Below are positions 55,706-64,000 of a DNA stretch of 64,000 nucleotides, piece by piece. The DNA is from an uncultured delta proteobacterium (GTDB lineage Bacteria; Myxococcota_A; UBA9160; JAFDET01), in NCBI GenBank assembly GCA_947259215.1, contig CAMYLJ010000008.1:1-64000 (forward strand), read 5' to 3'. The first letter of the stretch is position 1. Every line of letters starts with the position of its first letter. Made by a program: the position numbers and the translations under genes. Below the pieces are notes generated by a model. That model saw only the letters and a list, made by a program, of their open reading frames with translations, made no database searches and was not told the DNA's origin.

Positions 55706-56092
55706 ATGCCCCTCTACCGCTGCGCCGTTTCCGAAGGTCTCACCACGGAAGCGCAACGCGCCCGGATCGCCAAGGAAGTGGTTCGAATCCACTGCGAAGT
55801 GAGCGCGGCGCCGCCCTCCTTCGTCCACGCCTTCTTCACGGAGACGCCCGCCGCGGAGCTTCCCGAAGGCAGGCTGGCCTTCGTGCTGGGATCGATCCGT
55901 TGGGGTCGGACCGACGAGCAGAAGGCGCGCATCGTGTCGGAGCTCACCGACGTCGTGGCGGAGGTGATCGGCCGCGACCGGGATGCCGTCGCCGTCGTCA
56001 CCGCCGACGTGCCCTCCAAGTGGAACATGGAGGGCGGCGAGCTCCTGCCCGAGGCGGGCGAAGAGGCCGAATGGCTGGAGCGGCACCGATAG
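55706..56092 (+). CDS. Tautomerase, cis-3-chloroacrylate dehalogenase-like
   Basis: A 128-residue protein. After Met removal Pro1 is followed by LYRC; His28 is in VVRIHC and Arg64 and Arg67 are in GSIRWGR, corresponding to the His28 and paired Arg (70 and 73) of cis-CaaD. The NMEGGELLPEAGEE segment near the C terminus also matches the cis-CaaD layout, including a Glu. The family hydrates unsaturated acids; whether a halogenated substrate is used is not known. The tandem with the gene at 55357 may be a duplicated pair or two subunits. Confidence 0.75.
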   Translation: MPLYRCAVSEGLTTEAQRARIAKEVVRIHCEVSAAPPSFVHAFFTETPAAELPEGRLAFVLGSIRWGRTDEQKARIVSELTDVVAEVIGRDRDAVAVVTADVPSKWNMEGGELLPEAGEEAEWLERHR

Positions 56093-56171
56093 GAGTCGAG
56101 GGCACCCTCCTTCAGAGAGCGCCCTCGTTCTCCCACGCCACCGATTCGATACGGCCCGCGCTACGCGGCGC

Positions 56172-56441
56172 TCAGATCCCCGCGCCGGCCATGATGCCGG
56201 GCTCCGGGGCCACGTCCGGGGCGGTGATCAAGCCCACGTTGAGGGCAGCCACGTAGACCCAGTCGAATCCCGCGAAGCTCTTGTACGCGCCACGGAAGGC
56301 CAGGCTCAGCGCCAGGTGTTCGACGAAGACCCCCAGCGACGGCAAGGCGGCCAGACCGGCCATCACCGAAGCCGAGATCACGGAGGTCACCCCCGCGACG
56401 AGTGTTACGGCGTAGGCTGCGAAGATCTTGTCGTTGTCCAC
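56172..56441 (-). CDS. Small hypothetical membrane protein (89 aa)
   Basis: An 89-residue protein with two hydrophobic helices (about residues 7-30 and 60-78): KIFAAYAVTLVAGVTSVISAS and VYVAALNVGLIT. The GTG at 56441 was chosen because an AGAGGA stretch lies 7 bases before it; an ATG at 56486 is open in frame but has no ribosome-binding site. Function unknown. It faces away from the tautomerases. Confidence 0.55.
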   Translation of the reverse strand: MDNDKIFAAYAVTLVAGVTSVISASVMAGLAALPSLGVFVEHLALSLAFRGAYKSFAGFDWVYVAALNVGLITAPDVAPEPGIMAGAGI

Positions 56442-56860
56442 GGCTCTGTCCTCTTCTCTCCTGGTTCGCTGAATCCAATCGATCATTCGATCGCGTGCGT
56501 GCGAAATGCAGGCTCCGTGCCAGCGGGCCGGGCAACCGGTGTCGTCCAGGCGTCACCCTTCCTGGCCGAATGTCCAACCGAGCCGCCGCAAGAGGCAGAG
56601 CACGAAAATCCGCTCCGTTGCGCGAAAGTCTGCGCGTGACAGTTCGCTTGACTGCGGGTCAGGGAATTCGTTCCAGCGATTCGAACCGATTTGCCTCGCG
56701 CGGATTTCCGCTTCGATCCGTGGCGAAGATCCACATCCGGTTGTGGCCGATTGGGCAGAACGTCTCAGTCGTTCCGATCCGGTGTCGGCGCGATGACTTC
56801 GCGTCGACGAATGCGCGCGTGAACACGTGATCGGGCTGGACAATTCGACAACGAACGCTA
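56442..56860. other. Gene-free stretch
   Basis: About 420 bases of lower GC than the surroundings lie between the leftward membrane gene and Coq4. I see no supportable gene, RNA gene or clear hairpin terminator. It should contain the divergent promoters of both genes. Short open frames in it have no ribosome-binding site or family features. Confidence 0.5.
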
Positions 56861-57643
56861 GTGGCGCCGGGTTCCGCCGCGGCGCGCTACGCTGGCGAGG
56901 TGACGCGCAAGGCGGATCAGACGTGGGGGTTCCGGCTCGAGCCGCGCGAGTGGCGGCGTCTCGCCGGCCTCGTGCGCGCGAATCCGGGCGACGTGACGCT
57001 CGGCGCGCGCGTCTTCTTCGCGATCGGTGGCCACGACGAGGAGCCCGCCTATCGGCGCTTCCTCGAGACCCCGACGGGCAGGCATCTGGTCGAGAACGCG
57101 ATCGGCTATCCGGACCTGTTCACGGACTACGAGCGCCTGCGCGCACTGCCGCCGGGCAGCTTGGGTCGCGAGTACGTCCGGGATCTCGACGATCGCGGCA
57201 TCGACCCGCTCGAGCTCGACCAGCTCACGCAAGCCGCCTACGAAGGGCGTGCGTTCAGCCGCGAGCACGCCTACGTGCGCGATCGCGTGCGCCACGCCCA
57301 CGACCTCCTTCACACCCTCACGGGCTACGGGGTCGACGTGTTCGGTGAGGCCGGCGTGCTGGCCTTCACCTACGCACAGACGGGCAACAAGGGCTGGGCG
57401 GGGCTCGTGCTCCTGAACGGATTGACCGCGGTCGCGGGGTGGCGGCTCGACGGCTGGCGCGTCGCCTGGAAGGGATATCGCCGCGGTCGGCAGGCCCGCT
57501 ATCTCCCCGCCGTGGACGATTGGGAGAGGCTGCTCCAGCTCCCGATCGAGGAGGCCCGCGCCGAGCTGAAGATCCCGCCCCTCGAACCCTACGCACCCAT
57601 GGCGCTGGGCGACGTCTTCCGCTTCGCGAGCGACGCGCATTGA
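56861..57643 (+). CDS. coq4: Coq4-family ubiquinone biosynthesis protein
   Basis: A 260-residue member of the Coq4 family. The diagnostic zinc motif HDxxH-x11-E is exact: His147, Asp148, His151 in HDLLHTLTGYG, and Glu163 in FGEAG. Residues about 60-120 carry the helix bundle start (YRRFLETPTGRHLV, LDQLTQAAYEGR). Coq4 is a ubiquinone-biosynthesis protein that has been assigned a C1 decarboxylation-hydroxylation role in eukaryotes; the bacterial role is inferred. The GTG at 56861 was chosen for the longer family-like N terminus; GTG at 56900 is also possible. No other ubi gene is adjacent. Confidence 0.82.
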   Translation: MAPGSAAARYAGEVTRKADQTWGFRLEPREWRRLAGLVRANPGDVTLGARVFFAIGGHDEEPAYRRFLETPTGRHLVENAIGYPDLFTDYERLRALPPGSLGREYVRDLDDRGIDPLELDQLTQAAYEGRAFSREHAYVRDRVRHAHDLLHTLTGYGVDVFGEAGVLAFTYAQTGNKGWAGLVLLNGLTAVAGWRLDGWRVAWKGYRRGRQARYLPAVDDWERLLQLPIEEARAELKIPPLEPYAPMALGDVFRFASDAH

Positions 57644-57649
57644 GCCGAA

Positions 57650-58242
57650 TCAGGGCCGAAGCGTGATCGGTCCCTGGTAGCTGTCCCGGTTGGGAAAGAA
57701 GAAGACGGTCGTCGGGGTGGGGATGCGCACGACCCACTCCGTCTCGAGCGCCACCTCGCTGAGCGTCCAGCCATCCGGCAGCGTGAGCGGCGGCTTGTCC
57801 GGACCGCCCTCGACCACGTGGACGAAGTCCCCGCCCTCGGCGCCGGGGACGCGCAGCACGGGAACGCGCCGGCCCGTCCGAAATCGCAGCACGTGATGTT
57901 TCTCCACCAGCATCCGTCGCGGCCCGTCGGGTCCCGCCGGCTGCGCAAGGGCGCTGGCAGGTCGGGCGCAGAGCGCGAAGCGGTGGCCGCCGATCTCGGT
58001 CCGTCTTCAGCGTCGCCCGGTGAGTGCTCGAACCAGTGCTCGTCCATGGCGCCCGCGCCGATGCCGACGCGAATCCACGGTTCCTCGAGGGGCAGCGCCT
58101 CGTACTCCTCGCGCGAGACCGGCTCGACCGACTGCCAGACGTTCTGCGTCGTCGGGTCGAGGACCTCCGCGTGCAGCTCTTGCGCTCCCACCAGCACGGT
58201 GGCAGACGCGGGGCGCCCGGCGTGCTGCGAGCGGGCCGTCAC
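57650..58242 (-). pseudogene. Frameshifted hypothetical gene
   Basis: From GTG 58242 the frame reads VTARSQHAGRPASATVLVG, then EVLDPTTQNVWQSVEP and DEHWFEHSPGDAEDG, after which the sense moves to another frame near 58005: TEIGGHRFALCARPASALA, then MLVEKHHVLRFRTGRRVPVL up to a stop at 57650. A single-base change near 58000-58010 restores one product of about 197 residues. No known domain is recognised. It overlaps the stop of the upstream gene (GTGA), so the two are coupled. Sequence error and genuine decay cannot be told apart here. Confidence 0.6.
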
Positions 58243-58559
58243 TGCAGCGGGGAGTAGGGGAGGGGATGCAGCCGCTGCATTCGCTCCCGGAGCGCGACCG
58301 GCCGCAGCGGCTCGAAGAAGGCATCCGGCCCCTCCGCGCCGGCTGCCTCGCGCCAGGCGCCGAAGCCGGCCAGGTTCTCGAACTCGGTGACGTGCTGGAT
58401 CTCCGAGAACCACTCCTCGTGGCAGAACCAGGCGGCCATGAGTCGCGCGCCGAGCTTCTGGGTCGCCGGCACCGCGGCCTCCCCGGCGGCTTCGACGAAG
58501 CGGTCTCGCGTCGCCGGAGTGGCCGGATGGATGCGGAAGCTCTGCTTCAGGTAGATCAT
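58239..58559 (-). CDS. NIPSNAP/Dabb-like small protein
   Basis: A 106-residue protein shaped like the dimeric alpha-beta barrel family: LKQSFRIHPATPATRDRF at the N terminus, AAWFCHEEWFSEIQHVTEFENLAGFGAW in the middle, and a C-terminal helix-strand. NIPSNAP and related folds bind small molecules or catalyse mild oxidations. Function unknown. Its TGA overlaps the GTG of the downstream frameshifted gene. Divergent from the GST-like gene with about 80 bases between starts. Confidence 0.65.
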   Translation of the reverse strand: MIYLKQSFRIHPATPATRDRFVEAAGEAAVPATQKLGARLMAAWFCHEEWFSEIQHVTEFENLAGFGAWREAAGAEGPDAFFEPLRPVALRERMQRLHPLPYSPLQ

Positions 58560-58639
58560 CGCGACTCCCGAGCGGGTGCTTGTGCCCGCCTTCCGGATTA
58601 TGGCATGATCCGTGCCGAAACCCGAGCCGGACGTCCGCG

Positions 58640-59737
58640 ATGCCCCCTCCCGTCCCCGGACCCTATCGCTTCCACGCCTTCGAGGTTTCGTACTTCTCGG
58701 CCAAGGTGCGCCCGGCGCTCCGCTACAAGCGGATCTGGTACGAGGAGGTCCGCGCCGACCTGCGCGAGGTGCTGAAGCGGACCGGTCTCGGATTCATCCC
58801 CATCGTGGTGACGCCCGAGGACGAGACCTGGCAGGACTCGAGCGAGATCATCGACCGGCTCGAGGCGCGCCACCCGGACCCGCCCCTCATTCCCACCGCG
58901 CCGGTGCAGCACGTCGCGGCCCACCTGGTGGAGCTCTACAGCGACGAGTTCGCCACGATCCCCGCCATGCACTACCGCTGGGGCAGCCCGCTCGGCGAGG
59001 CCTCGGCCCGGGCGCGCTTCGTGGCGATGATCGGAGACCCGAAGCTGGGTGAGGGCGCAGCCAAACGCATGGCCCGCGCGCGCTTCGCGCTCGGCGCCAC
59101 GCAGGAGACGGCGCCGGCCCTCGAGGACCACACCCGCGACCTGCTCGCGGCGCTGTCCAGCCACTTCGAAGAGCACCCGTACCTGCTCGGCGACCGCATG
59201 TCCTTCGCCGACTGCGCCCTCATGGGTCCCGTCTACGGGCACTTCTTCAGCGACCTGGTCCCGCGCCAGCTCTTGCTGGAGAGCGCGGTTCCGGTCGTGG
59301 GCTGGATCGAGCGCTGTCTCTACCCGAGCCCCGATCCGGGCGGATGGCTCCCGGACGGAGGGATCGCGGAAAGCCTGCGCGAAGTGCTCTCGCTGATGGG
59401 GCGCGACGCTGCCCCGGTGATCCTCGCCGGGATCCGCGCCTTCGAGGCCTGGGCCGACGAGCGGCCAGCGGACAGCGACGAGCCGCCGCGGGCGGTGGGG
59501 AACTACGAGACCACCCTGCGCGGGGTTCCGCTCAAGCGCTTCATCAGCTCCTACACCCTGTGGATGCTCCAGCGCACCCTCGACGCCTACCTCGCCCTGG
59601 CGGCGGACGAGCGCGCCCGGGTGGACGCCGCTCTCGCGGACACCGGTTGGGAGCCTCTGCTCGTCTACCGGCCGCGTCACCGCCTCGCCAAGCGAGGCTT
59701 CCAGCTCGTGTTCGAAGAGAAGGGAGGAACGCCGTGA
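58640..59737 (+). CDS. GST-fold protein with long C-terminal extension
   Basis: A 365-residue protein. The N-terminal thioredoxin-like domain reads YRFHAFEVSYFSAKVRPALRY with GFIPIVVTPEDE and DSSEIIDRLEAR as GST contact motifs; the helical C domain has YLLGDRMSFADCALMGPVY near residues 190-208. About 130 extra residues follow (about 235-365), longer than normal GSTs. It heads a tightly packed operon: DUF2855 starts at the overlap with its stop. Might be the glutathione-handling step of a catabolic pathway. The ATG at 58640 is the first that leaves the domain start intact. Confidence 0.8.
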   Translation: MPPPVPGPYRFHAFEVSYFSAKVRPALRYKRIWYEEVRADLREVLKRTGLGFIPIVVTPEDETWQDSSEIIDRLEARHPDPPLIPTAPVQHVAAHLVELYSDEFATIPAMHYRWGSPLGEASARARFVAMIGDPKLGEGAAKRMARARFALGATQETAPALEDHTRDLLAALSSHFEEHPYLLGDRMSFADCALMGPVYGHFFSDLVPRQLLLESAVPVVGWIERCLYPSPDPGGWLPDGGIAESLREVLSLMGRDAAPVILAGIRAFEAWADERPADSDEPPRAVGNYETTLRGVPLKRFISSYTLWMLQRTLDAYLALAADERARVDAALADTGWEPLLVYRPRHRLAKRGFQLVFEEKGGTP

Positions 59738-60858
59738 CCGATCGCCCCGCCGGAGTGGATTTCCTGGTCGAGAAGTCCGACTGGATTCGGCATCGCTTCG
59801 TGGACGCCCCGGAGCCCGAGCTCGCGCCCGGACAGGTGCTCTTCCGCGTCGATCGCTTCGCCTTCACGGCCAACAACATCTCCTATGCGCTGGCCGGAGA
59901 CATGCTCGGATACTGGCGCTTCTTCCCCGCCCCCGTCGGCTGGGGGCGGATTCCCGCCATGGGGTTCGGCGACGTCGTGCGCTCGAGCCACCCCGACGTG
60001 GCCGAGGGGACGCGCTGCTTCGGCTTCTACCCCATGTCCCGCTACCTGGTGATCGAGCCCAGCGCTGCCAGCCCGGCCGGGATCATGGACGGAGCCTCGC
60101 ACCGGGAGGGCCTGGCGCCGGCCTACAACCAGTACAGCCCCGCCGCTCACGACGCCCTCTACGAGCCCGACCACGAGGACGCCCTGATGCTGCTGCGCGG
60201 GCTCTTCATGACCTCGTTCCTGGCCGACGATGCCATCGCCGACCACGACCACTACGGGGCCGAGTCGGTGCTGATCTCTAGCGCCTCGAGCAAGACGTCG
60301 ATCGCGCTGGGCTTCCAGGTCTCGCGTGCCGGGCGCGCGCGGGCGGTGGGACTCACCTCGCCGCGCAACCGCGCGTTCGTGAGCAAGCTCGGGTGCTACG
60401 ACCAGGTGCTGACCTACGACGAGGTCCTTACCCTCGACGCCGCTCTCCCCAGCGTCTACGTCGACATGGCGGGCAGCGGGCCGCTGCGGGCCGCCGTGCA
60501 CGGCCACTTCGGCGACCAGCTCCGCTACTCCTGCTCGATCGGCGCCACGCACTGGGACGCGCCTCGCGACGACGCTGCGCTCCCGGGGCCGAAGCCCGAG
60601 TTCTTCTTCGCCCCGGGACAGATCCAGAAGCGCGTGGCGGACTGGGGGCCCGCCGGATTCCAGGAGCGCATCGGCGACGCCTGGTCCGCCTTCCGCGCCT
60701 TCAGCGACGGCTGGCTGCGGGTGCAGCGCGGCTACGGACGCGACGCCGTCGAGCGCGTCTACCTTGAGACCCTGGAAGGACGCACCCGCCCGGAGGACGG
60801 CCACGTGATCTCGCTCTGGGACTCGGCGGAGGAGGCCTCCGGCGGCGCACCGGCGTGA
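59734..60858 (+). CDS. DUF2855-family protein (MDR-like, zinc-less)
   Basis: A 374-residue protein. DUF2855 words are DFLVEKSDWIRHRF near the N terminus, FTANNISYALAG, GVVRSSHPDVAEGTRCFGFYPMSRYL, SASSKTSIALGF near residue 188, and LRYSCSIGATHW. The fold resembles medium-chain dehydrogenases with an altered cofactor region; no catalytic role is established. The GTG at 59734 overlaps the upstream stop, and its TGA overlaps the sulfatase start. The coupling implies one pathway for all three. Confidence 0.82.
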   Translation: MTDRPAGVDFLVEKSDWIRHRFVDAPEPELAPGQVLFRVDRFAFTANNISYALAGDMLGYWRFFPAPVGWGRIPAMGFGDVVRSSHPDVAEGTRCFGFYPMSRYLVIEPSAASPAGIMDGASHREGLAPAYNQYSPAAHDALYEPDHEDALMLLRGLFMTSFLADDAIADHDHYGAESVLISSASSKTSIALGFQVSRAGRARAVGLTSPRNRAFVSKLGCYDQVLTYDEVLTLDAALPSVYVDMAGSGPLRAAVHGHFGDQLRYSCSIGATHWDAPRDDAALPGPKPEFFFAPGQIQKRVADWGPAGFQERIGDAWSAFRAFSDGWLRVQRGYGRDAVERVYLETLEGRTRPEDGHVISLWDSAEEASGGAPA

Positions 60859-62528
60859 GTCGACTGCGCACGATCGGGGTGGGAGCGCTCGCACTCCTGG
60901 TTCTCGCCGGCGGCCTGGCCTGGCTCTACCAGGACGAGGTTCTGCTCGCGCTCGTCGGCTTCGCGATGGACCGGCGCCTCCCGGTGGGAACGCACCAGCC
61001 CATCGGCTGGGCGAGCGGGCCGGATCCGTCAGGCCGTTCGACCGCGGAACGTCCCCCGAACATCGTCCTGATCCTGGCCGACGACCTCGGCTGGAACGAC
61101 CTCACGTTCGGCGGCGGCGGCGTCGCGGACGGCACGGTTCCGACGCCGCACATCGACTCGCTGGCCCGGGAGGGCGTGTCGTTCTCCAACGGCTACGCGG
61201 CCAACGGCACCTGCGCTCCGTCGCGCGCAGCCATCATGACCGGGCGCTACGGGACCCGCTTCGGCTTCGAGTTCACGCCGACGCCCGCCGGCATGAGCAC
61301 GCTGCTTCCCCGCATCGGGAACCGCAGGCCGGGCCGCCTCCGGCCGATCATCACCACTCCCGTGGAAGACGGCGGCGACCTCTCCTTCGAGGCCCTCGGG
61401 ATGCCGCCCTCGGAGATCACCCTGGCCGAGCTCCTCGGCGAGCGTGGCTACCACAGCGTGCACATCGGGAAGTGGCACCTCGGCCGCAATCCCGGCATGG
61501 CGCCGCACGACCAGGGCTTCGACGAGAGCCTGCTGATGGCGAGCGGCCTCTACCTGCCGGAGGACGACCCGGAGGTGGTGAACTCGAAGCAGGACTTCGA
61601 TCCGATCGACCGCTTCCTCTGGGCCGCGCTCAAGTACGCGGCGTCTTTCAACGGGGGAGCGGCGTTCGAGCCGGCCGGCTACTTGACCGACTACTACACC
61701 GACGAAGCGGTGAAGGTGATCGAGGCCAACCGGGACCGGCCCTTCTTCCTCTACCTCGCGCACTGGGCGCCCCACACGCCGCTCCAGGCCGCGCGTTCGG
61801 ACTACGAGGCCCTCTCCCACATCCAGGACCACCGCCTGCGGGTCTACGCCGCCATGATCCGCGCCCTCGACCGGGGCGTCGGTCGCGTGCTCGAGGCGCT
61901 GCGGAAGCAGGGCCTGGAGGAGAACACCCTGGTCTTCTTCACGTCGGACAACGGCGCGCCCAGCTACATCGGGCTCCCCGACGTGAACCGCCCCTTCCGC
62001 GGCTGGAAGATCAGCTTCTTCGAGGGAGGGGTTCACGTACCCTACTTCGTGAAGTGGCCGGGCCGGCTGCCGGCGGGCGACTCCTTCGCTGCGCCCGTGA
62101 GCGGCTTCGACATCTACGCCACGGCCGCAGCGGCAGCGGGCGCCTCGCTGCCCGAGGATCGCGTCATCGACGGGGTGGATCTCGTGCCCTTCGCACGGGG
62201 CGACCGCCAAGGGGCTCCGCACTCCCGACTCTTCTGGCGCACCGGTCACTATCAGGTGGCGCTGGTGGATGGCTGGAAGCTGCAGGTGAACGAGCGCCCG
62301 CCCGGTACGACCTGGCTCTTCGACCTGGCGAACGACCCCGGCGAGCGCACCAATCTGGCGGAGCGCGAGCCCGCGCGCGTGGCCTCGTTGAAGCGCGCGC
62401 TGGCCGCCCACAACGCCGAGCAGGCCGAGCCTGCCTGGCCGTCCCGGGTGGAGGTGCCGGTGAACCTGGACAAGACCCTGGTCGAACCGGATGCGCCCGA
62501 CGACGAGTACATCTACTGGCCCAACTGA
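60855..62528 (+). CDS. Secreted/membrane-anchored sulfatase
   Basis: A 557-residue type I sulfatase. An N-terminal membrane anchor (about 7-26) is followed by the metal site LADDLGW (Asp76, Asp77). The CxPSR signature reads CAPSR with Cys120, to be oxidised to formylglycine by a separate enzyme not seen here. GKWHLG and TSDNGAP near the middle complete the catalytic set. It removes sulfate from a secreted sulfate ester; the substrate is unknown, and a small molecule is likely, since the operon lacks carbohydrate enzymes. The GTG start overlaps the DUF2855 stop. Confidence 0.9.
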   Translation: MSRLRTIGVGALALLVLAGGLAWLYQDEVLLALVGFAMDRRLPVGTHQPIGWASGPDPSGRSTAERPPNIVLILADDLGWNDLTFGGGGVADGTVPTPHIDSLAREGVSFSNGYAANGTCAPSRAAIMTGRYGTRFGFEFTPTPAGMSTLLPRIGNRRPGRLRPIITTPVEDGGDLSFEALGMPPSEITLAELLGERGYHSVHIGKWHLGRNPGMAPHDQGFDESLLMASGLYLPEDDPEVVNSKQDFDPIDRFLWAALKYAASFNGGAAFEPAGYLTDYYTDEAVKVIEANRDRPFFLYLAHWAPHTPLQAARSDYEALSHIQDHRLRVYAAMIRALDRGVGRVLEALRKQGLEENTLVFFTSDNGAPSYIGLPDVNRPFRGWKISFFEGGVHVPYFVKWPGRLPAGDSFAAPVSGFDIYATAAAAAGASLPEDRVIDGVDLVPFARGDRQGAPHSRLFWRTGHYQVALVDGWKLQVNERPPGTTWLFDLANDPGERTNLAEREPARVASLKRALAAHNAEQAEPAWPSRVEVPVNLDKTLVEPDAPDDEYIYWPN

Positions 62529-62564
62529 TCGGCGCCTGCCGCCGACGACGATGGAGAATCGCCC

Positions 62565-63170
62565 ATGACGCAAGCCCAGCAGAGCCCGCGAGCGACGACC
62601 GACGGCCGGGCGCGCCGTGCCGAGCGCAGCCGCGAGACGATCGCCAATGCGCTCTACGAGCTGGTGGGCGAGGGCAACCCGACGCCGACCGCCCAGCAGG
62701 TCGCCGAGCGCGCAGACGTGGGCATCCGCAGCGTGTTCCGGCACTTCTCGGACATGGAGGCCCTCTACGCCACCCTCGACGCCCGCCTGCTGGCGGAGAT
62801 GAGACCGCTCGTCCGCCCGCTGCCGCCGGAGGGTGGCCTGCGCGAACGCGGCGCGGACCTGGTGCGCGAGCGGGACGCGCTCTTCGAGCGCATCGCCCCG
62901 TACAAGCGTGCCTCGAACCTCAATCGCTGGCGTTCTCCCTTCCTGACCGCCCAGCACCGCAAGCTGGTGGCCGCGCTGCGCACGGGTCTCCTGCGTTGGC
63001 TCCCGGAGCTCGCGTCGGCGCCTCCCGACACGCTCGAGGCGCTCGACCAGGCTACCTCGTTCGAGGCCTGGGACCGGCTGCGCAGCGAGCAGCGGCTGAG
63101 CCGCGCGCGCGCTCGCGCCGCCATGGAGTGCACCGTGCTGGCTCTGGCTGCCAGCTTGGAGGCGCCGTGA
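62565..63170 (+). CDS. TetR-family transcriptional regulator
   Basis: A 201-residue regulator whose helix-turn-helix is TAQQVAERADVGIRSVFRHF (about residues 41-60), after an N-terminal Arg-rich helix. The rest is helical and binds an unknown ligand. It lies in the middle of the catabolic-looking operon (36 bases after the sulfatase, overlapping the next gene by GTGA), so it probably regulates these genes and senses their substrate. The ATG at 62565 is preceded by GGAGAATCGCCC, a usable ribosome-binding site. Confidence 0.87.
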   Translation: MTQAQQSPRATTDGRARRAERSRETIANALYELVGEGNPTPTAQQVAERADVGIRSVFRHFSDMEALYATLDARLLAEMRPLVRPLPPEGGLRERGADLVRERDALFERIAPYKRASNLNRWRSPFLTAQHRKLVAALRTGLLRWLPELASAPPDTLEALDQATSFEAWDRLRSEQRLSRARARAAMECTVLALAASLEAP

Positions 63171-64000
63171 GTCGGTTGGCTCGAAAGGCGATGCCCTGGT
63201 TCCCCTGGGCCCTGACCCACCCGCGCGCGCGAGCCGCACGCCGCGCGCTCGCGGAAAGGCGCCGGCGGCTCGCCGGGCAGTCGCACCGGATCCGCTACTT
63301 CCACCAGGTCGACGATCCCTACAGCCAGCTGGCCGCACAGGCGCTGGAGCCGCTCTGCGATCGCTACGAAGTGCAGCTCGAGCCCCACCTGGTGGGGCCG
63401 CCGCCCGACGACGCCGCCCCCGAGCGCGAACGTCTCGAGGGCTTCGCGCGCCGGGACGCGGCCGACGTGGCGCCGTTCTACGGGCTCGACTTTCCGGAGT
63501 CCCCGGCGCCGCCCAGGCCCGCCGACGTCGAGCTCGCCGGACGGCTGCTGGCGTCGGCGCTCGCCAGCGGACGCTTCGTGCAGGAGGCGGCGCGCATCGG
63601 AGCGGCGCTCTGGAGCGCGGACCCGAGCCGGCTCGGGAAGCTGGCGATCGAGCTCCCGCCGGCGGACCGCGAAGCCACGCGGAGCGCGATCGACGCCGGC
63701 AACGCACTGCGCCGGCGCAGCGGCCACTACCTGGGCGCCATGTTCCACTACGCCGGCGAATGGTACTGGGGCGTCGATCGGCTGTGGCACCTCGAACGCC
63801 GGCTGCAAGCGCTGGGCGCGCTGCGCTCGGGCACCGACGCCGCCCCGATCGTCCCGCGACCCGATCTCCGGGAGGCGCCACCCCTCGGGTCGCCGCGTCG
63901 TCTGCGGCTCGAGTACTTCCCGTCGCTCCGCAGCCCCTACACGGCCATCGCGATGCGTCGGGTCCTGGAGCTTCCCGAGCGCCTGCCCGTCGAGCTCGTG
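63167..64000 (+). CDS. Tandem DSBA-like (HCCA isomerase type) protein, partial at window edge
   Basis: The visible 278 residues begin at the GTG at 63167, overlapping the TetR stop. A first thioredoxin-like domain starts IRYFHQVDDPYSQLAAQA (about 42-60), and a second starts LRLEYFPSLRSPYTAIAMR (about 246-264), so the protein is a duplication of the 2-hydroxychromene-2-carboxylate isomerase/DsbA-like fold. Neither start has a CxxC; both have a Ser-Pro-Tyr or Pro-Tyr-Ser type site as in glutathione-dependent isomerases. The C terminus lies beyond the window. It may act with the GST in this operon. Confidence 0.72.
   Translation, partial: MSRLARKAMPWFPWALTHPRARAARRALAERRRRLAGQSHRIRYFHQVDDPYSQLAAQALEPLCDRYEVQLEPHLVGPPPDDAAPERERLEGFARRDAADVAPFYGLDFPESPAPPRPADVELAGRLLASALASGRFVQEAARIGAALWSADPSRLGKLAIELPPADREATRSAIDAGNALRRRSGHYLGAMFHYAGEWYWGVDRLWHLERRLQALGALRSGTDAAPIVPRPDLREAPPLGSPRRLRLEYFPSLRSPYTAIAMRRVLELPERLPVELV

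Follow-up and report, generated by a model that had tools for sequence, protein, structure and literature searches.

Analysis of a 64-kb stretch of DNA (the window, which opens the 335-kb contig G000:C8 of a 5.7-Mb draft genome that is 96% complete) and of the contig past it revealed a tight run of eight plus-strand genes (58640-67518). This run is probably an inducible catabolic or detoxifying operon with its own TetR repressor and one operator before the first gene (Table 1). Its substrate, we infer, would most likely be a sulfated, halogenated or otherwise electrophilic natural product.

Table 1. Genes of the predicted operon, its putative operator and the divergent neighbor
Feature	Position	Strand	Basis
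NIPSNAP-like protein	58239-58559	-	Pfam NIPSNAP 25.2 bits, cut-off 22.3
Predicted TetR operator	58594-58612	.	19-bp palindrome CGGATTATGGCATGATCCG
GST	58640-59737	+	ORF call, Pfam
DUF2855	59734-60858	+	ORF call, Pfam 332.8 bits
Sulfatase	60855-62528	+	ORF call, Pfam 175 bits
TetR	62565-63170	+	ORF call, Pfam TetR_N 24.2 bits (cut-off 24), marginal
DSBA-fold protein	63167-64522 (beyond window end at 64000)	+	ORF call, Pfam on second copy
HLD-I haloalkane dehalogenase	64519-65424 (wholly past window)	+	NCBIfam PRK00870
205-aa membrane protein	65432-66049 (wholly past window)	+	Hydropathy only
MFS_2 transporter	66046-67518 (wholly past window)	+	Pfam MFS_2 247.9 bits

A preliminary description of the window had reported five rightward genes (GST, DUF2855, sulfatase, TetR and a tandem DSBA). 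All five are present, and the three 4-bp overlaps given for them are exact. The start assigned to the operon, 58239, belongs to the leftward NIPSNAP-like gene, and the operon proper starts with GST. Reading past 64 kb, as had been advised, completed the DSBA gene and added three further genes, giving eight and not five. The sulfatase and TetR genes are separated by a 36-bp gap; downstream, DSBA and the dehalogenase gene overlap by 4 bp (stop on ATG), a 7-bp gap follows, and the membrane protein and MFS_2 genes again overlap by 4 bp. The strand switches at about 67508, where the gene after the transporter is convergent. No promoter-like site was seen inside the eight-gene run, and its one weak terminator-like site is fewer than shuffles give. 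This packing, together with the lack of internal promoter-like sites, argues for the proposed single transcription unit. A search for consensus sigma-70 promoters gave none. In addition, the operon is directly preceded by genes for a tautomerase-family protein and a Coq4-like protein (window 55706-57643), and a sulfotransferase-like gene is located downstream (contig 70766-71992, minus strand).

The predicted operator has a G at its center, flanked by two 9-bp arms that pair at all positions but one. It lies 27 bp ahead of the GST start and 34 bp from the start of the divergent NIPSNAP-like gene, which may share its control. An alternative GST start (TTG at 58580) is possible, but would engulf the operator. 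The palindrome CGGATTATGGCATGATCCG was expected 0 times in shuffles of the window, which never yielded it, and its core GATNATGNCATNATC, at up to one mismatch, occurs only once in the 5.7-Mb genome. In relatives from other genera, this core was also present between tetR and GST in three loci (L183, L184 and L185) and, in weaker form, in L186, and between tetR and DUF2855 in L055. Since the operator consensus was fixed after viewing L055, L183 and L184, these three loci are not independent. Among 40 held-out tetR loci, which were fetched after the motif had been fixed, five carried the operator at no more than three mismatches, compared with about 0.4 expected (0.9% of random windows match at this threshold). 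The other 35 had no good copy, suggesting that the operator has drifted or that the more distant tetR genes recognize another sequence.

The TetR protein (201 aa) has orthologs in 48 relatives, repeatedly beside GST, DUF2855, sulfatase and DSBA genes. Its assignment as a TetR repressor combines the marginal TetR_N match with a palindromic operator in the promoter region, indicated by sequence and by phylogenetic footprint. With the tetR gene now inside the operon and the operator before the first gene, the locus has the textbook arrangement of an operon whose repressor controls all of its genes, tetR included. The palindrome is likely to be the switch of the operon under its own TetR, and this predicted regulation is well supported at the sequence level; the earlier suggestion that TetR is the local regulator gains support from the single site ahead of the operon. 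The locus resembles TetR-controlled catabolic and detoxification operons in its local TetR, palindromic operator before the operon, and combination of enzymes and transporter, whereas the present gene set and operator had no description in the literature searched. In two genomes, operator-like palindromes also precede the gene for an AMP-dependent ligase, within a cluster that contains DSBA and TetR as well (L190, position 6290; L191, position 13910).

The preliminary description had named absence of the five-gene order from other genomes as a refutation. This order was absent from all 97 relatives searched, which speaks against it as a conserved pathway, but its members turn up there in many other combinations, with regulator and operator unchanged. 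To measure this, members were mapped in 98 genomes with a distance limit of 8 kb. GST and DUF2855 were found together in 9 genomes (0.14 expected), being adjacent and co-directional in 8 of them. Other pairs included TetR-DUF2855 (7 genomes, 0.2 expected), GST-TetR (5, 0.15 expected), TetR-sulfatase (5, 0.2 expected), TetR-DSBA (5, 0.18 expected), sulfatase-DUF2855 (4, 0.17 expected) and DSBA-DUF2855 (3 genomes). These expectations are simple uniform-placement estimates for a 4.8-Mb genome that ignore relatedness, and the excess is too large to be explained away on that account. Arrangements included DSBA-GST-DUF2855 (G008), GST-DUF2855-TetR (G073), DUF2855-TetR-dehalogenase with a divergent sulfatase (G056), and divergent TetR and DSBA with a sulfatase (G028). 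In the sister genome (G002), most members were present but scattered over separate contigs. The dehalogenase, membrane protein and transporter seldom joined the other members elsewhere in the 98 genomes, and may be recent local additions with a different job. Taken together, the set appears to be a modular regulon that belongs to a single Myxococcota lineage and is here collected into one operon.

Several other genes were recurrent neighbors in relatives: a second extended GST, a classical GST, luciferase-like monooxygenases, an AMP-dependent ligase, a metallo-beta-lactamase-fold protein, DUF1330, DUF3604 and an unnamed 211-aa family. This neighbor set speaks for breakdown of a difficult organic compound rather than for sulfate scavenging alone. 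It is very improbable that sulfate starvation induces the operon and that its products free sulfate and, via the glutathione enzymes, other organic sulfur: the sulfatase does occur together with glutathione-type enzymes, but a dedicated TetR and a unique operator take the place of a global sulfur regulator, and such scavenging would leave the dehalogenase and the medium-chain dehydrogenase/reductase-like (MDR) protein without a role. With regard to the neighbors themselves, the 211-aa family had no Pfam match and accompanied DUF2855, GST, sulfatase or TetR genes at 11 loci, including L061 (8873-9505), L047, L057, L065, L073, L187 and L196. L183, L184 and L185 share a run of luciferase-like monooxygenase, GST, second extended GST, AMP-dependent ligase, GST, divergent TetR and DUF3604, a conserved and fuller form of the regulon in other genera. 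A second extended GST copy (63% identical) was also found at L010 (G000:C44, 2288-9922), with a metallo-beta-lactamase-fold protein, two DUF3604-like proteins and a luciferase-like monooxygenase.

The sulfatase (PF00884) carries the motif CAPSRAAIMTG (CAPSR) at residue 120, which places it in type I (formylglycine). The C/S-x-P-x-R motif is accompanied by a formylglycine-generating enzyme in the same genome (PF03781, C6:75036-75719, E 5.5e-58), and hydropathy indicated an N-terminal membrane segment (residues 4-26). Its best solved relatives are carrageenan sulfatases, which are too distant to fix the substrate. Compared with the S1 carrageenan sulfatases 6prm and 6b0k, the CxPSR motif and the catalytic domain are common, whereas the operon sulfatase has a membrane anchor and its operon lacks any carbohydrate-active enzyme. 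The last gene encodes an MFS_2 transporter, which supports the uptake previously suggested for the predicted pathway. These carbohydrate sulfatase relatives, and the likeness of MFS_2 to GPH sugar symporters, could point to the use of a sulfated glycoside or polysaccharide, with the sulfatase and a sugar-type transporter as the core and the rest as accessory. This reading is quite unlikely, because the run has no glycoside hydrolase or polysaccharide lyase, the partners of the sulfatase in relatives are GST, DUF2855, DSBA and TetR, and the transporter scored 164.6 against the GPH cation symporter model TIGR00792, below its cut-off of 231.35, and was filed as MFS_2 only.

Two glutathione-type folds, GST and DSBA-type, had been noted among the operon genes, and Pfam was clear for both. 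The GST (365 aa) contains GST N and C domains followed by about 130 further C-terminal residues. Its AlphaFold2 model (mean pLDDT 95.5) gave GSTs as Foldseek matches, and S17, P54, Q65 and D66 were invariant across 50 relatives; thus, the protein shows the thioredoxin-like N domain, helical C domain and conserved Ser, cis-Pro and Gln-Asp of cytosolic GSTs. Isoprene- and styrene-epoxide GSTs (IsoI, StyI) and beta-etherases share with it the GST fold and a Ser at helix 1, at weak similarity in both sequence and fold, whereas the scores fall far under the equivalog cut-offs and the C-terminal extra is particular to the operon GST. Relatives of this GST in named genomes were mostly Deltaproteobacteria/Myxococcota MAGs, and the broader ones in Parvibaculum, Gammaproteobacteria and Myxococcus had no close relatives of the other members alongside. 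The DSBA protein (451 aa), a candidate for the HCCA isomerase/kappa GST type of DsbA fold (a CxxC-free DSBA domain with a glutathione-binding Ser), has no CxxC and is apparently a tandem: its C-terminal copy matched PF01323 (46.4 bits) with SPY replacing CxxC, and the N-terminal copy, which had no Pfam match, was seen by eye as a sequence pattern.

The DUF2855 family was previously described as having no known activity, yet the protein is no blank, since it models as a zinc-independent MDR enzyme of the PTGR/double-bond-reductase type. Its structure model, built from only 8 sequences, had a pLDDT of 83.3 (the other four models, 63-72), and showed a GroES-like plus Rossmann fold whose top Foldseek matches were all zinc-free MDR double-bond reductases (best E 1.5e-16). 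PTGR1, CurA, PA1648 and plant DBR have the same predicted fold (E about 1e-16 to 1e-13, probability 1.00), but at TM-scores of only 0.53-0.61, and DUF2855 has SASSKT instead of their Gly-rich NADPH loop. In a profile search, its SASSKTS aligned with the cofactor loop GASGSIG of the solved NADP-dependent oxidoreductase 9jp8, and the SASSKT loop was invariant across 16 DUF2855 relatives. As DUF2855 lacks the glycine-rich NADP(H) loop (GxxG type), we consider it to have a fold in common with MDR double-bond reductases and do not class it as a member. DUF2855 was also present in 47 plasmid records, nearly all from Pseudosulfitobacter and all below 60% identity. The literature on DUF2855, DUF3604 and the gene combination offered nothing useful.

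The dehalogenase belongs to the HLD-I family (PRK00870, 401.7 bits; cut-off 265). Its catalytic pentad, D123, H279, D249 and the halide-binding W124 and W163, aligned with solved dehalogenases, and it is predicted to hydrolyze a carbon-halogen bond. The HLD-I enzymes 5esr, 4mj3 and 6f9o (PRK00870) matched over the whole length, with nucleophile, acid, histidine and two tryptophans kept; the operon enzyme differs in having HGNP where these have HGEP, and in its sulfatase/GST operon setting. Its presence past the window indicates a halogenated or similarly electrophilic substrate, and a 'sulfated and probably halogenated electrophile' is a better fit than the 'sulfated aromatic or terpenoid' of the preliminary description. 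MAGs of the Myxococcota order UBA9160, to which the window most likely belongs, are reported to be rich in hydrolytic dehalogenases in macroalgal microbiomes (PMC10919026) and, in work on dehalogenation in the Mariana Trench, to be among the dominant ones (PMC12750322); these results are consistent with a dehalogenating reading and are no proof of it. The adjacent 205-aa membrane protein had orthologs in 12 relatives and no Pfam or NCBIfam match; its candidate assignment as EXPERA/EBP-like was dropped, as neither database supported it.

General detoxification is a possible but less probable role, in which the operon would defend against electrophilic or halogenated toxins from competitors, algae or sponges, with MFS_2 exporting conjugates, and would not serve feeding. 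Two GST-type proteins, an alkenal-reductase-like MDR, a dehalogenase and TetR are a usual set for such defense, and the run has no central catabolic enzymes. On the other hand, nutrient uptake is a better fit for an operon with its own membrane-anchored sulfatase and with a transporter from MFS_2, a family whose usual role is the import of solutes together with cations, and related tetR clusters with an AMP-dependent acyl-CoA ligase and luciferase-like monooxygenases fit catabolism.

For the inducible operon favored here, TetR would occupy the palindrome when the substrate is absent and block the operon including its own gene, and the substrate or a product would free TetR from the operator. 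The membrane-anchored sulfatase would then strip sulfate at the outer face of the inner membrane, and the MFS_2 transporter would bring the desulfated product in. Inside, the haloalkane dehalogenase may cleave the carbon-halogen bond by hydrolysis, the DUF2855 enzyme may reduce or otherwise handle an activated double bond or carbonyl, and the GST and DSBA-type proteins may conjugate or isomerize electrophilic intermediates using glutathione. No ring-cleavage or beta-oxidation genes were found within the operon, which counts against this reading as a route to full breakdown. The literature searched contained no published description of this enzyme set. More speculatively, and with considerable doubt, a modular regulon under one orthologous TetR and a TATGSCATA-type operator might extend across UBA9160 and degrade, by a glutathione-dependent route, a class of natural products that are both sulfated and halogenated; DUF2855 would then represent a novel MDR type in which an SxSSKT loop, in place of a glycine-rich one, binds the cofactor. 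If these proposals are right, they would provide the regulator, operator and gene set that an uncultured lineage uses when it encounters organohalogens and organosulfates, and would make the regulon predictable from sequence. DUF2855, which is widespread in the lineage, would then gain an assigned fold, a chemistry open to testing and a cofactor loop of unusual type.
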